From Nitrosococcus halophilus Nc 4 (GTDB lineage: Bacteria > Pseudomonadota > Gammaproteobacteria > Nitrosococcales > Nitrosococcaceae), in the NCBI RefSeq assembly GCF_000024725.1, contig NC_013960.1, positions 496,001 to 560,000 of the forward strand: DNA of 64,000 nt. Reading direction: 5' to 3'. The number at the start of each line of letters is the position of its first letter. Position 1 is the first letter of the stretch. The translations under genes and the position numbers were made by a program. The notes beneath the pieces were generated by a model, which was not told where the DNA came from, searched no databases, and saw only the letters and a program-made list of their open reading frames with translations. Of this stretch, positions 29,342-33,900 are shown in pieces.

Positions 29342-29589
29342 ACCTGCTAAAGCAGGTGGCTTTTTCAGACCCAACCCCAAAAGGAGCGGTCATTTATGGT
29401 AGTCAAGAGACCCCACATACGGACGGCTTACCCCACAGGGGCGCCCGTTGCTAAGCTGATAAGCAAAGCAATCCCTCGTTATTTATTTACGCCTGTCTGG
29501 CAGGCTGGACATCGACGTGGGATACGCGCGCCAAGCCAACAGTATACACCGCTTAGTCTCGTAGTTAAAACTGACCGTCTAAAGACGGT
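29342..29589 (+). mobile_element. Short hairpin-bounded element, IS200/IS605-like, no transposase gene
   Basis: The two ends carry matching hairpins: ACCTGC-TAAA-GCAGGT (29342-29357) and ACCGTC-TAAA-GACGGT (29574-29589), each a six-base stem with the same TAAA loop and each followed by GG. Subterminal hairpins of this kind mark IS200/IS605-type elements. The 248-nt interval holds no transposase or nuclease ORF, only a structured RNA-like stretch. The right hairpin is where homology to the neighbouring Uma2 gene ends, suggesting insertion into that gene. The exact cleavage sites are unknown. Confidence 0.55.
29395..29580 (+). ncRNA. HEARO/IscB omegaRNA-like structured RNA
   Basis: From memory the stretch ACATACGGACGGCTTACCCC followed by an ACA loop, GGGG, the CCCGT arm and a GCTAAGCTGATAAGC hairpin, then AATCCCTCG, closely resembles the conserved core of HEARO RNAs, now known as the guide-scaffold (omegaRNA) of IscB nucleases. 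Visible stems: CCCC/GGGG at about 29430-29441, TTGCT/AGCAA around 29449-29466, GCCTG/CAGGC at 29491-29505 and GGATAC with GTATAC near 29520-29546. No iscB gene lies within the window. Identity is by pattern memory, not by a covariance search. Confidence 0.5.
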
Positions 29590-29943
29590 GGTATCAACCT
29601 TTGGAAGAGTACGATCATGAATATCAATGGCATCGAACGGTTTTACGGAGATAATATCATCGTTGCGGAAAAGACCTAAGGGCTGCCATTGGCTGTTGAC
29701 AAGTTCATAGGCCTCCAGCGTCTTGGTTTTCGGGTCGACCAGCCAAGCAAGTTGGATCCCATAATGGGCGTACAAGGGCATCTTCTCCTCACGATCGGTG
29801 CTCTTCGTGGATGGCGAGAAAATTTCACACACCCAGTCCGGTACGACCTGGATCTTGTGTCCCACCGGGGGCGATGGCATCCGTTCTTTTCGCCAGCCTG
29901 CGATATCTGGGACTGTGAGTTCGCTGTCTAGAACAATGACCCC
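29479..29943 (-). pseudogene. Truncated Uma2-family (DUF820) gene
   Basis: The open frame matches the C-terminal half of Uma2 proteins: LTVPDIAGWRKERMP, VVPDWVCEIFSPST, MPLYAHYGIQLAWLVDP, EAYEL and PFDAIDI. Homology begins without a start codon just after an in-frame TAA at 29944-29946, so about 100 N-terminal residues are missing; the first ATG is at 29880. After about residue PFDAIDIHDRTLP the frame runs into the hairpin-bounded element (VDTTVFRRS onward is element sequence). Both ends are therefore lost. Uma2 proteins have a PD-(D/E)XK-like fold of uncertain role. Confidence 0.75.
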
Positions 29944-29966: not shown

Positions 29967-30209
29967 ATGGCGCTTAATCTGGCAAAAACGGTGGTTAATT
30001 TTCTGGCGCAGGAGTGCGAGAAATTCCGCGATTACCATCAGGCCAAGGGGTCCCTGTTCAGCAATTGGGAGGCGGCGTTTAGGAACTGGATCCGGAAGGC
30101 GGCTAAGTTCAAGGCAGATAAAAACCCGCCAGCAGGTGTGTCACGATCTGATCATGCTGTTGGTGAAAGAGAAGTTTCGGACAAGGAAGGAGAGTGTACA
30201 AGCTATTGA
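29967..30209 (+). pseudogene. Fragment of a phage replication protein (C-terminal piece)
   Basis: The 80-aa frame contains KFRDYHQAKGSLFSNWEAAF followed by RNWIRKAAKF, resembling the C-terminal end of phage replication/DnaT-like proteins (pattern FxxYWxxK...DWxAxWxNWxRxA). The beginning of that protein is absent and the tail after about residue 50 is unrelated-looking. No ribosome site is obvious. It ends 16 nt from tRNA-Arg, a common phage integration site. Probably a relic, not a working gene. Confidence 0.45.
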
Positions 30210-30225
30210 TTTAAAGGGTTAAAAT

Positions 30226-30302
30226 TGGCGCCCCGGATACGATTCGAACGTATGACCTTCCCCTTAGGAGGGGGATGCTCTATCCAGCTGAGCTACCGGG
30301 GC
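30226..30302 (-). tRNA. tRNA-Arg (anticodon CCT)
   Basis: Read on the minus strand, a complete cloverleaf: acceptor GCCCCGG pairs with CCGGGGC, D-arm GCTCAGCTGGATAGAGC, anticodon stem TCCCC/GGGGA with loop CTCCTAA (anticodon CCT, reading AGG), T-arm ATACG-TTCGAAT-CGTAT, and an encoded CCA end. Length 77 nt. Confidence 0.97.
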
Positions 30303-30468
30303 AGTAATGGTATTTTTGGATACTTAGTCAGGGGGAGTTTGATGCGCTTCTCTTTGCAAACCAACCTCAGCCCAATGCGTTCCATTTCAAAAAACTCGCT
30401 TTCATGTTACCCCATGAGGCTTAGGGAGTGAAGGGGTAATCAGTGAGCCTGCCTTATTTTAAGACCGA

Positions 30469-30780
30469 TTAGTCCTGGGTTTCATCAATCCTGAAATACT
30501 GATCCAGGCCTAGCTCGCATAATTCTTTATGAAGGCAGGGAGTGCAGTGAATTATACTGATATCAGCTTGTTCTCTATCGGCGCATTCCTTGAGCATCCA
30601 TAGCAAGTCATAACCGGAATCTTTGATTGATTCCATGTTTGCTAAATCAACCACAAAGTTTATTTTCTGGCCCTGGGTAGAGACCTCCCAGGAATCTTGG
30701 CTCATGGTAAAGTCTAGCGTGTCCCGGATGGTCAGAACGATGGTATGAGTTTTGGTGGGGGTTGTGGCAGCTACTGACAT
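30469..30780 (-). CDS. STAS-domain protein (anti-sigma factor antagonist-like)
   Basis: Single-domain protein of 103 aa. Short beta strands (IVLTIRDTLDF, KINFVVDLANMESI) precede the DSGYDLLWMLKECAD helix, the position where SpoIIAA-type proteins carry the phosphorylatable serine (usual DSSG; here DSG). A cysteine-containing IIHCTPCLHKELCELGLDQYF segment ends the fold. The ATG at 30780 has GGGAGGAG five nt upstream; the apparent longer start lies inside that ribosome site. No anti-sigma or kinase partner is adjacent, so the pathway is unknown. Confidence 0.75.
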   Translation of the reverse strand: MSVAATTPTKTHTIVLTIRDTLDFTMSQDSWEVSTQGQKINFVVDLANMESIKDSGYDLLWMLKECADREQADISIIHCTPCLHKELCELGLDQYFRIDETQD

Positions 30781-31330
30781 TTCAACTCCTCCCATTCTAA
30801 AGACAAGTCCTTTAATTTATTTCTGTGATTCAGTCGGTGGAATACTTGTGTTTTTCCTGCTAATGGAATTTTTTAGACAGACATAAATTGTGCCAATATT
30901 TGTTTAGGGAGGTTGTCTTTTGCTTAAGTTTATGATTTTTAGATATTTAGTGGTTAAAAGAAGTTTTATGTGTTATGTCTGTTCCCCCTGAAAGTGGGTT
31001 TTAAACCAACCTCATTTAGGCTCTGTTTGTCGGAGTAGCGAGACACCTCTAGGGGTCATGGACGGTGGTTGCTGTGGTCCGGGCTTGGGTCAGTGAGGTC
31101 CGGGTTTGTGGGATAGGGAAAAACGTTCATCAAAGGGAGCGAGAAAAGACTTCTCAGAGGGGTGGAAGCGGTAGGTGGGGATATTGTTGCCACTCTCTAG
31201 GAAACCTGGACTGAGCTAAGGCGGGATATGCAGCTAGACTTTCAAGTAGCGGTGCTAAAAGCGGTGTGGAGACTATGGGAATGTCCCTCTATCGGCCCAC
31301 CGTTGCAGAGAAGATTGCCATCAGCAATAT
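30781..31330. other. Intergenic stretch without a recognisable gene
   Basis: About 550 nt upstream of the STAS gene with no frame giving a convincing protein. The part next to the gene is AT-rich and may hold its promoter; the part from about 31040 is G-rich with scattered GGA triplets and no clear hairpin series. I see nothing I can name. Confidence 0.5.
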
Positions 31331-31337
31331 TTATGAA

Positions 31338-31451
31338 CTAAATACCTTGACATTCATGGGTATTTAGGTGCTTACTATAACCCCTAGGCGCTCATGATGG
31401 CGCAGAAAAAAACGGAAAGCCACATTAGTAGGTTGTGGAACTGTGGCTTCC
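31338..31451. repeat. Two strong inverted repeats in intergenic DNA
   Basis: CTAAATACC (31338-31346) pairs exactly with GGTATTTAG (31359-31367), 12-nt loop. GGAA-A-GCCACA (31414-31424) pairs with TGTGGC-TTCC (31442-31451) with one bulged A and a 17-nt loop. Both lie just upstream of the candidate structured RNA at 31497. Confidence 0.6.
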
Positions 31452-31496
31452 CGCGTCTGCGTCGCAAAATAATGAATATAACAAAAACAATAAAGA

Positions 31497-31600
31497 AAAG
31501 GCACCGCTTGCCGGGGCTTTTAAAGCAACTTTGAGTGCCTTATTACCCTATGGGTAGGCAAAACCGGCAGGCGAGGGCCTTTGTGCTCCGATATCATAGA
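31497..31600 (+). ncRNA. Candidate structured RNA of unknown class
   Basis: Long-range pairing closes a branched fold: AAAGGC (31497-31502) with GCCTTT (31577-31582) and GCTTGCCGG (31506-31514) with CCGGCAGGC (31564-31572, one G-T pair). Inside are a hairpin GCTT/AAGC (31516-31526) and a stacked hairpin TGCCT...ACCC (31536-31548) with GGGT-AGGCA (31552-31560). An intrinsic terminator follows directly. It does not match a riboswitch or sRNA family I know and has no downstream gene on the same strand, so a stand-alone sRNA or a mobile-element RNA relic are both possible. Confidence 0.5.
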
Positions 31601-31630
31601 CCACGCTCTAAGGGCGTGGTTCCTTTTTTT
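31600..31630 (+). terminator. Intrinsic terminator
   Basis: ACCACGCTC (31600-31608) pairs over nine bases with GGGCGTGGT (31612-31620), one G-T pair, loop TAA, followed by TCC and seven Ts (31624-31630). The loop resembles the hairpin ends of the element at 29342-29589, so an IS200/IS605-type end is an alternative reading. Confidence 0.75.
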
Positions 31631-31776
31631 ATGGGATAAATAAAAAATTTTTTACAAGGGGCTGGCCTCTAGATGCCAACATTGTCGGCTGCAGTAGGCT
31701 TGCTAGAGCCATTCTGGATGAGAATAAGGCGTTAGCCTTGGTGATATCAGTTTTTTCGGATTTTGTTGGGATAAGA

Positions 31777-31852
<76 letters not shown>

Positions 31853-32319
31853 AGGACTTAAAACTGAATTCTACCCTGAAAAGTTTGAAGTGTCATCTCT
31901 CGGAGTTTGCTGCTTATGAGTGACAATTATCGGCTTATCTGCTTTTGCCGACTGGGCTCCTGCCCTGCCCGGTTGCCCTCTGCGCGTTTCCTGCTTCATC
32001 GAAGCCCCTATTGTCCCAGCTCTTGCGCGGTATCGTTGGGAGGCTGTGCCCCTCGACAGGCCTAACTTCCCGCGCTCCTTGCGGTAGCCAAAATGGATGT
32101 GCCGGTCGGATTTTACATCATGGCCGGTCTTCTGATAACAACTCCAAGGTCTCCTTATTGAGACCACACTCTAGCCTGGGGTCGATGTTACCGAAACGCA
32201 CCGCAGCGAGCAACGGGTTATTTAGCCCTCGCGCTCGGCGCGCCGTTTCACTTCGCGACCTCGCTGGGGGGTCGCCTAACATCCATGTAAGGCTTCAAAG
32301 TTATTTATTGTTTTTAAGT
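31853..32319. other. Intergenic stretch without a recognisable gene
   Basis: About 470 nt between tRNA-Ala and flgN. Frames here (such as 31945-32352 on + and 31871-32167 on -) give Arg/Ser/Pro-rich translations without domain features or ribosome sites. Two small hairpins are visible: GGTCTC/GAGACC (32148-32165) and GCGACC/GGTCGC (32255-32275). Confidence 0.5.
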
Positions 32320-32802
32320 TTAAACCCGCCCCAGGAGGGAGCGGGGTGCTGAGGCAGAGGGGAGTAGATCACCTCCAGGGCCATAAGCCGCAGACTTTAG
32401 CTCCTGTCCACTCAGTATTGTTAGAGCCCGCAGAACTTGGTGACGGTTACGGTTTATCAGGCTGCCATTGAGTTGATTTTGGTCACGGCATTGCTGTAGC
32501 CGCTCTTGCCGTTGCTCCCAAAGTGTTGAGAGTTGCCCCTGCTCCTGGGAGGTGCTGGCCTGGACATAAGCGCTAATGCCCTCGGGGGTGGAGGGCAGCC
32601 CGGACATTCTAAGTCGCTCTTCATGATCTTGAAAGACAGCCTCCAGGCGTATCATGGCGTCTTGTTTCTTGTTGACTGCGGCCTCCATGTCGGTCACCTC
32701 CCTCTGGCGTAGGGCAAGGTGTTCATCTTGCAATGTTTGCCACAGGCATTCAAGGCAGCTTAGCTCCTCTTGGAGAAGGTTGATTAGAACTTGCGCCGAC
32801 AT
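32320..32802 (-). CDS. flgN: Flagellar export chaperone FlgN
   Basis: Cytoplasmic chaperone for hook-associated proteins FlgK and FlgL. The 160-aa protein is almost entirely helical and Gln/Glu/Leu-rich, as in the family, with the C-terminal pattern NGSLINRNRHQVLRALTILSG followed by YGPGG that recurs in FlgN homologues. It follows flgM by 10 nt in the same operon, which is the usual order and the strongest support for the call. Confidence 0.85.
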   Translation of the reverse strand: MSAQVLINLLQEELSCLECLWQTLQDEHLALRQREVTDMEAAVNKKQDAMIRLEAVFQDHEERLRMSGLPSTPEGISAYVQASTSQEQGQLSTLWEQRQERLQQCRDQNQLNGSLINRNRHQVLRALTILSGQELKSAAYGPGGDLLPSASAPRSLLGRV

Positions 32803-32812
32803 GCTTGGATGA

Positions 32813-33127
32813 CTATTTATTCAAGGCCTGTTCCAGGGCAATCAGTTTGTCCGCAATACGCTCGGAATCGATTTGATAGCTGCCATCTTGGATTGATTGT
32901 TTGATTTGCTCAACCTTTTGATTATCTACGACGGATACACTGGCTAGAGATGCCTCCGTCTCCCTAAGTTGTTCAGCCGTGTTAGTCAAGGTGATAGTTT
33001 CCGCGGTCTGATGACTTAAGGCGCTAGAATCCTCCGCTGACTTGGAGCGGTCAGCAGTAGCCGTTTCTAGCGATTTTTGCACGGGGGCATGACTATAGCC
33101 TGATAGTCCATTGATTTCTGTGGACAT
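32813..33127 (-). CDS. flgM: Anti-sigma-28 factor FlgM
   Basis: Binds and holds sigma-28 (FliA) until it is exported through the completed hook-basal body. The 104-aa protein has a disordered Ser/Thr/Ala-rich N-terminal half and the conserved C-terminal region VDNQKVEQIKQSIQDGSYQIDSERIADKLIALEQ. The ATG at 33127 has GAGGAGA eight nt upstream; the longer frame to 33157 was rejected for that reason. A sigma-28-type promoter lies in its 71-nt leader. Confidence 0.92.
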   Translation of the reverse strand: MSTEINGLSGYSHAPVQKSLETATADRSKSAEDSSALSHQTAETITLTNTAEQLRETEASLASVSVVDNQKVEQIKQSIQDGSYQIDSERIADKLIALEQALNK

Positions 33128-33159
33128 TTCGGCTTTCTCCTCAAATATTTTGCCCATTG

Positions 33160-33186
33160 TTATCGGCGTTTAAGGTTTCAGCTTTA
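33160..33186 (-). promoter_or_regulatory. Sigma-28 (FliA) promoter for flgM-flgN
   Basis: On the minus strand TAAA (33183-33186) is followed after exactly 15 nt by GCCGATAA (33160-33167), the full consensus of FliA-dependent promoters. It lies between flgA and flgM, pointing into flgM. Autoregulated late expression of flgM from such a promoter is known in enterics. Confidence 0.85.
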
Positions 33187-33198
33187 AGGTTGCGGGTA

Positions 33199-33900
33199 TT
33201 ACATTTGCACTTGTACTATACCGTCAGCCGTTACCGTCCCTTCGACAATACGCTGGGAGGAATTGTTCCTGACACGAATGTGCTCTCCCGCGCCGGCATC
33301 TTCGAGAGCTTGGCCTTTCATGTGGACCTGTAGCCCGGGGACTTTGGCTATTAAAATGACCTGTTGCCCACGCCGAACGAGTTTGGGAATTTCCAATACC
33401 TCGGGAGTAATGACTGCCCCCAAGCCCAAGGGTCGCTTGAGGCGTTTACCCGCCACCTGCGCTGGGTCCCTTAGATAACCTTGTCTTAGTTGCTCTAGAT
33501 TGCGGCGCTCCAGATGGATATCAGCAAGGCTTAGGGGGGAACCAGGCACTAGTGGGTGGGTTGCAACCACTACTTTACCATAGACGGCTACTTTGACAGA
33601 GAGATACACCGTCCAGGGTGTGCCCCCAGTACAGCGGACACCCACTGTGGTGTTGCCTGTGGGGCGGCTGCCACTAGGGAAGAAAGCTTTTAAGGGATGA
33701 GAACATTTCGGGAGGCGCAAGCGCCGATCTAATGCTCCTGGGGTGACTTCGATATTCCCCGGTAACGCTTTCGCCTGCTTGAGGACAAATTTGCGAGCTA
33801 TCTCCTGGATTTCAGCCAAGGATTGCTTATCCTTGGCCATGCTATGACTAGGGGAGAGCAGCATTAAGAAAAGCCAAAATAAGCAATAGAGAAGGCGCAT
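33199..33900 (-). CDS. flgA: Flagellar basal-body P-ring assembly protein FlgA
   Basis: Periplasmic chaperone for P-ring (FlgI) assembly. A signal peptide (MRLLYCLFWLFLMLLSPSHS) precedes the mature protein, which has two Cys-flanked N-terminal segments (LRLPKCSHPL and VGVRCTGG) and a C-terminal SAF-like domain (VATHPLVPGSPLSLADI...RRGQQVILIAKVPGLQV). I start at the ATG at 33900, giving 233 aa; a TTG at 33930 is in frame. It is followed by flgM and flgN on the same strand, while flgB and the rest of the rod genes are not in the window. Confidence 0.9.
   Translation of the reverse strand: MRLLYCLFWLFLMLLSPSHSMAKDKQSLAEIQEIARKFVLKQAKALPGNIEVTPGALDRRLRLPKCSHPLKAFFPSGSRPTGNTTVGVRCTGGTPWTVYLSVKVAVYGKVVVATHPLVPGSPLSLADIHLERRNLEQLRQGYLRDPAQVAGKRLKRPLGLGAVITPEVLEIPKLVRRGQQVILIAKVPGLQVHMKGQALEDAGAGEHIRVRNNSSQRIVEGTVTADGIVQVQM

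Follow-up and report, generated by a model that had tools for sequence, protein, structure and literature searches.

A predicted small RNA gene with its own terminator beside tRNA-Arg(CCT) in Nitrosococcus

What is encoded in the gap between two tRNA genes of Nitrosococcus halophilus Nc 4, where an earlier note, made from the sequence alone, had picked out a structured RNA at 31497–31630? The window analyzed here is a stretch of 64,000 nucleotides (positions 496,001 to 560,000 of contig NC_013960.1, itself 4,079,427 bases long) from a genome of 4,145,260 bases in two contigs, and all coordinates are those of the window unless stated. The gap is bounded by tRNA-Arg(CCT) at 30226–30302 and tRNA-Ala(CGC) at 31777–31852, both on the minus strand, and a minus-strand frame of 108 codons (30469–30795), with no Pfam match at E ≤ 0.001, lies between tRNA-Arg and the structured segment. 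The claim that no gene follows on the plus strand was borne out, as none is present before tRNA-Ala(CGC). We consider it very probable that a free-standing small RNA gene is located here. From sequence comparison, it is probably a lineage-restricted, trans-acting small RNA (sRNA) bound by Hfq; for an sRNA gene combined with an Hfq-type mechanism, we would put the chance at about even.

The extent of the element was defined by comparison with relatives. BLAST of 30950–31660 against the genomes of 95 relatives gave matches in four, all from one genus, those in G001 and G002 being short. We take G001, G002, and G003 to be N. watsonii, N. oceani, and N. wardiae, respectively. tRNA-Arg(CCT/CCU) is the neighbor of the unit in all four Nitrosococcus genomes. 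Identity between the window and its nearest relative, G003, is approximately 96% in the unit compared with approximately 73% in the flanking intergenic DNA: 38 of 40 columns are identical at 31341–31380 and 228 of 238 at 31381–31630 (12 gap columns). The left flank agrees at 370 of 507 columns, with 64 gap columns, and the right flank at 107 of 145, with 13 gap columns; comparing promoter plus RNA with the two flanks gives a Fisher p of 5.6e-18. When 30000–33200 was compared with G001 and G002 by blastn, the alignment was confined to the tRNA, a short element at 30403–30436, the promoter/first stem-loop region, and the terminator. Because the identity block with G003 and the blastn blocks in G001 and G002 together delimit a conserved unit at 31347–31630, running from a promoter-like block to the T7 tail, the segment first described is the 3′ half of that unit. 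The element is thus present where it had been placed, but the unit starts approximately 110–150 bases further left, and the promoter-like block (31347–31378) and a stem-loop (31398–31464) had both been left outside. Between G001 and G002, the RNA is better conserved than the right flank (172/210 versus 167/251, p = 2e-4) but not better than the left (103/128, p = 0.77). A longer RNA spanning 30976–31640 (z = −4.48, 20 shuffles) was also considered and rejected; up to approximately 31335, its conservation with G003 does not exceed that of the other flanks, and blastn finds no match to this part in G001 or G002.

The promoter-like block (31347–31378, plus strand) consists of TTGACA at 31347–31352 and TACTAT at 31373–31378, separated by an unusually long spacer of 20 nt, and 26 of its 32 columns are invariant across the four species. 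Because a consensus promoter scan, limited to spacers of 16–18 nt, found no plus-strand promoter at 31347–31378, promoter activity at this site is something that we infer. Around the −35-like site there is an imperfect inverted repeat (75%), and the long spacer would fit a hypothetical activator of the MerR type. Judged from the −10-like hexamer, the predicted transcript would occupy 31385–31630 on the plus strand, a length of approximately 245 nt. The four genomes each contain a single copy of the 20-nt core of the block. A wider regulon sharing the block was rejected, since there are no further exact sites in these genomes. In G004 and G005, which belong to the same family, the core gave single hits with three mismatches, each within a long open frame.

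The predicted RNA comprises, in order, a 5′ stem-loop (SL1), an A-rich linker, a second stem-loop (SL2), and the terminator hairpin. SL1 (31398–31464, plus strand) was identified from folds and alignment of the four species. It carries a tract of seven A residues (A7, 31406–31412) on one side of an internal loop, and 17 of the 19 columns of its 3′ strand (31443–31461) are invariant; the two species pairs form the lower helix in different registers. The linker (31465–31496, plus strand) contains five consecutive ARN triplets in the window. Runs of 5, 5, 6, and 6 are found in the four species despite the differing length and sequence of the linker, and they were reached in 77, 84, 8, and 24 of 2000 shuffles, that is, 0.4–4% each for four runs that are not independent. 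The linker is unpaired in most folds. The exception is G002, where the minimum-energy fold pairs part of the linker with the U tail but the centroid does not.

Folding of 31480–31640 gave −61.1 kcal/mol compared with a shuffled mean of −43.7 kcal/mol (z = −4.33; none of 200 shuffles was as good), and the predicted transcript as a whole was also stable in the window (z = −3.85), G001 (−4.29), G002 (−3.83), and G003 (−4.65). SL2 (31497–31582, plus strand) retains its basal stem in all species, whereas the apical part is rebuilt in each, and 28 of 55 ungapped columns are invariant. Of the nested stems that had been described from the sequence, the two basal ones, AAAGGC (31497–31502) with GCCTTT (31577–31582) and GCTTGCCGG with CCGGCAGGC, are present, with pairing probabilities of 0.86–1.0 when SL2 is folded alone, and the ACCC/GGGT stem is equally firm (0.98–1.0 under the same conditions). 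The TGCCT/AGGCA stem reached only 0.09–0.15 in the window (SL2 alone; 0.21–0.33 in G003) and GCTT/AAGC only 0.06–0.09 (SL2 alone); because of these low probabilities, we regard both as minority alternatives. The proposed three-way junction does appear in the lowest-energy fold of the window, via partly different apical stems, but it is not the conserved fold: G003, G001, and G002 each fold SL2 as a single extended hairpin, and the junction is found in the window sequence only. The predicted gene is a clear case of an sRNA with a top hairpin that is remodeled between species and a 5′ stem, ARN linker, and terminator that are retained.

Covariation in relatives had been suggested as a check on the fold. 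Both sides change in 2 of 34 pairs, a count reached by 102 of 500 shuffles of the four sequences. The 34 named pairs are paired in 94.1% of cells compared with 35–50% when partners are slid by one to three columns, in a structure that was itself derived from the same four sequences. The observed paired percentage was reached by 39 of 500 shuffles, the covariation score by 32, and the count of additional pair types by 477. Covariation support is thus weak because only four sequences are available.

The unit is closed by an intrinsic terminator (31599–31630, plus strand). The claim that the RNA has its own terminator with seven Ts could be read directly from the sequence: a 10-pair hairpin (31599–31621) is followed by CC and then T7 (31624–31630). 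Thirty of the 32 columns are invariant, and T7 is kept in 4/4 species. A terminator scan of 30796–31776 found one terminator-like site versus a shuffle average of 1.2, so the site taken alone is no more than expected by chance.

Two other explanations were considered for a transcript at this position. If the unit were the 5′ leader or a riboswitch of a downstream gene, a candidate would be a peroxiredoxin gene on the same strand, approximately 300 bases downstream in G001 and approximately 360 in G002. However, the next feature in the window is a minus-strand tRNA, that in G003 is a tRNA-Ala remnant followed by an integrase gene, and a complete terminator closes the unit in 4/4 species. Because no downstream gene is conserved, we do not regard the unit as a leader and give that reading almost no credence. 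The same applies to an mRNA for a small protein, for which we see only the faintest chance. The window does contain an ATG frame of approximately 46 codons at 31395, but the start codon is replaced by ACG in G003, where the frame also differs further along, the frames of G001 and G002 are others and shorter, and the indels are not multiples of three.

The suggestion of an undescribed sRNA held up in several respects: the same tRNA-Arg locus is occupied in 4/4 genomes, the block is conserved with G003, and the predicted folds are stable in all four. The proposed Rfam scan gave no match over the unit at gathering score. At this threshold, Rfam 15 identified just two tRNAs in the window, and at E ≤ 5 there was nothing credible over the unit in 30300–32400 or the three orthologous loci. 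The weak matches at the unit, among them BsrG (19.9 bits, opposite strand) and drum (19.7 bits), were far below their gathering scores. A covariance model of 201 positions, R1, was built from the four species, in which it scores 193–212 bits. It matched 5 of 63 genomes of the order, namely the four source genomes and G059 at 25.9 bits. From a sample of the class it picked out 1 of 369 genomes and from a sample of the phylum 1 of 398, and both times the match was the window itself. Weak relatives may be missed in the large scans because few candidates per genome were retained under strict filters. No credible R1 match was found in G004 or G005. In G004, the 255 bases that separate tRNA-Arg(CCT) from tRNA-Ala(CGC) contain no credible sRNA, and G005 has no sRNA match near its tRNA-Arg. 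Exact-pattern scans of genome_contigs gave no match; they carry little weight because even the genus itself was not found there, and near relatives have probably been left out of that collection. The terminator pattern had no match in viral_contigs, and a looser pattern had three, none of which was accepted by R1 at E ≤ 1. As far as these searches reach, the sRNA appears restricted to one genus, and this looks like either a gain in Nitrosococcus or a loss in the smaller G004 and G005 genomes.

The G059 match is a hairpin that, read by eye, adjoins the end of a putative IS200-type transposase, and the earlier note had itself allowed that the element might be the end of an insertion element. The terminator hairpin does resemble hairpins of G059, one of which is that beside the transposase end, and this would suit a remnant or end of an IS200/IS605-type element. 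The unit is, however, present in a single copy in its own genome and has no match among plasmids or phages. In each of the four genomes, the terminator hairpin has no exact match away from this locus; the other hits carry two mismatches. The tRNA-Arg neighbor is common to all four, and the promoter-like block and SL1 are conserved alongside. An insertion-element origin is therefore extremely unlikely.

Another question is whether the unit has been reported before. Table 1 of PMC2864571 (Weinberg et al. 2010) lists an uncharacterized candidate, Nitrosococcus-1, with the distribution “Nitrosococcus, Clostridia” and rates its status as an RNA ambiguous and a cis-regulatory role improbable. The shared genus and the judgment in that table against cis-regulation both fit the unit described here, but the same table places Nitrosococcus-1 in Clostridia too, whereas we found no convincing match outside the genus in model scans of the order and of samples of the class and phylum to which Nitrosococcus belongs. 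We consider identity with Nitrosococcus-1 quite unlikely; it would affect the novelty of the gene and not its mechanism. Among the matches listed for a literature search on Nitrosococcus with sRNA or RNA-seq terms, no title was devoted to the small RNAs of the genus. The gene is ordinary in kind and, unless it is Nitrosococcus-1, seems undescribed as a member.

How might such an RNA act? We propose that transcription would begin near 31385 from the promoter at 31347–31378 and end in a U7 tail near 31630, and that the RNA would fold with SL1, SL2, and the terminator hairpin formed and the A-rich linker open. The 3′ U tail would bind the proximal face of Hfq and the (ARN)n linker the distal face, which is the class II mode, and the Hfq-bound RNA would then pair with mRNAs and alter their translation or stability. 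In PMC9037510, class II sRNAs are described as binding Hfq through U-rich and (ARN)n stretches. The class II reading is favored here because the U7 terminator and five to six ARN triplets are present in 4/4 species and Hfq is encoded in 6/6 genomes, where its gene scores above cut-off. The likeness to class II sRNAs of the ChiX kind consists of an intrinsic terminator with a U-rich tail, an (ARN)n stretch, and an encoded Hfq; the RNA, which is predicted to bind Hfq, differs in that its sequence resembles none of the known members in Rfam. Approximately 245 nt is long for this class. The layout of GcvB, with a stem-loop, an open linker, further stem-loops, and a terminator, resembles that of the predicted RNA and is offered as a lead only; the GcvB linker is CA-rich compared with the A-rich linker here, and there is no Rfam match to GcvB at the unit. 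Nitrosococcus are ammonia-oxidizing gammaproteobacteria, and the gene, if transcribed, would provide a lineage-specific regulatory RNA in this group.

The distribution of conserved positions speaks against this proposal. The invariant parts, the SL1 3′ strand and the terminator, are mostly paired, and there is no conserved exposed seed. A search of the four genomes for complements of the invariant SL1 strand gave 79 matches, four of which are the locus itself, compared with 73 for a reversed control, and targets chosen by complementarity to this strand were rejected for lack of any excess. Conserved structure of this kind, with the A7 loop and fixed 3′ strand of SL1 and the terminator as the most conserved parts, no exposed seed, and complementary sites without excess, would suit an RNA that binds a protein other than Hfq, as a titrating or scaffold RNA, and does not act by pairing with mRNA. 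This is the main rival to the Hfq reading, and we regard it as possible but unlikely. No known protein-binding RNA family was matched in Rfam searches of the window and the three orthologous loci, and by eye we saw no CsrB-like set of recurring GGA loops in exposed positions. 6S RNA (RF00013) resembles the predicted RNA in size range only; it has no match at the sRNA locus at E ≤ 5 and is accounted for by a single match elsewhere in each of the 6/6 genomes searched (73–90 bits).

The A7 tract and U7 tail could also meet each other. On this reading, the RNA would gate its own 3′ end, with a pseudoknot formed between the A7 of SL1 and the U7 tail of the terminator. Such a clasp would shield U7 from both Hfq and exonucleases until the opening of SL1 by a target or protein that binds the invariant SL1 3′ strand. 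Both tracts are kept in 4/4 species. RNAalifold, run on a MAFFT alignment, omitted SL1 and paired A7 with the U tail across the whole alignment, as this reading predicts; we ascribe the omission to misaligned SL1 arms because every single-sequence fold has SL1. The duplex of AAAAAAACGGAAAG with GGUUCCUUUUUUU was calculated at −6.0 kcal/mol but uses bases that SL1 needs, and A7 with U7 alone gives just −0.4 kcal/mol. No covariation test applies to the A7/U7 pairing because neither side varies. We therefore see only a slight chance that the tail is gated in this way. If it were, it would represent a tail-sequestering switch within a bacterial sRNA, a little like the A–U clasp of nuclear-RNA stability elements.

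Several minor observations were made around the locus. The intergenic element at 30403–30436 (TTACCCCATGAGGCTTAGGGAGTGAAG...), upstream of tRNA-Arg, is kept in 4/4 species and occurs once in the window; it may be part of the tRNA-Arg promoter region or a regulatory site. Directly before the promoter-like block of G001 there is a stretch of approximately 100 bases (L008 3000–3100) that is approximately 90% identical to the matching stretch of G002 (L009) and has no blastn match with the window; it could be an upstream regulatory region specific to this clade. G002 also carries two overlapping minus-strand frames between tRNA-Arg and the sRNA (L009 1911–2745), read by eye as a putative IS630-type transposase, which leave the sRNA unit untouched. 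On the other side of tRNA-Arg, a short minus-strand frame in the window (29479–29880) covers only positions 91–162 of the 172 in the Uma2 domain (putative nuclease), its C-terminal part, and appears to be a gene fragment. The alignment of G003 with the window (31777–31825) stops inside tRNA-Ala(CGC), of which just the 3′ part remains in G003, and no complete tRNA-Ala was found within the 7.5-kb stretch. A phage-type integrase gene (Pfam Phage_integrase; L007 1813–3265) adjoins the remnant, as in a tRNA-targeted island. A second match to the 3′ part of tRNA-Arg(CCT) and its flank, at 91%, lies approximately 21 kb from the intact tRNA-Arg of G003 (L036, C1:381613–381704) and appears to be the distal end of a further island integrated at a tRNA.
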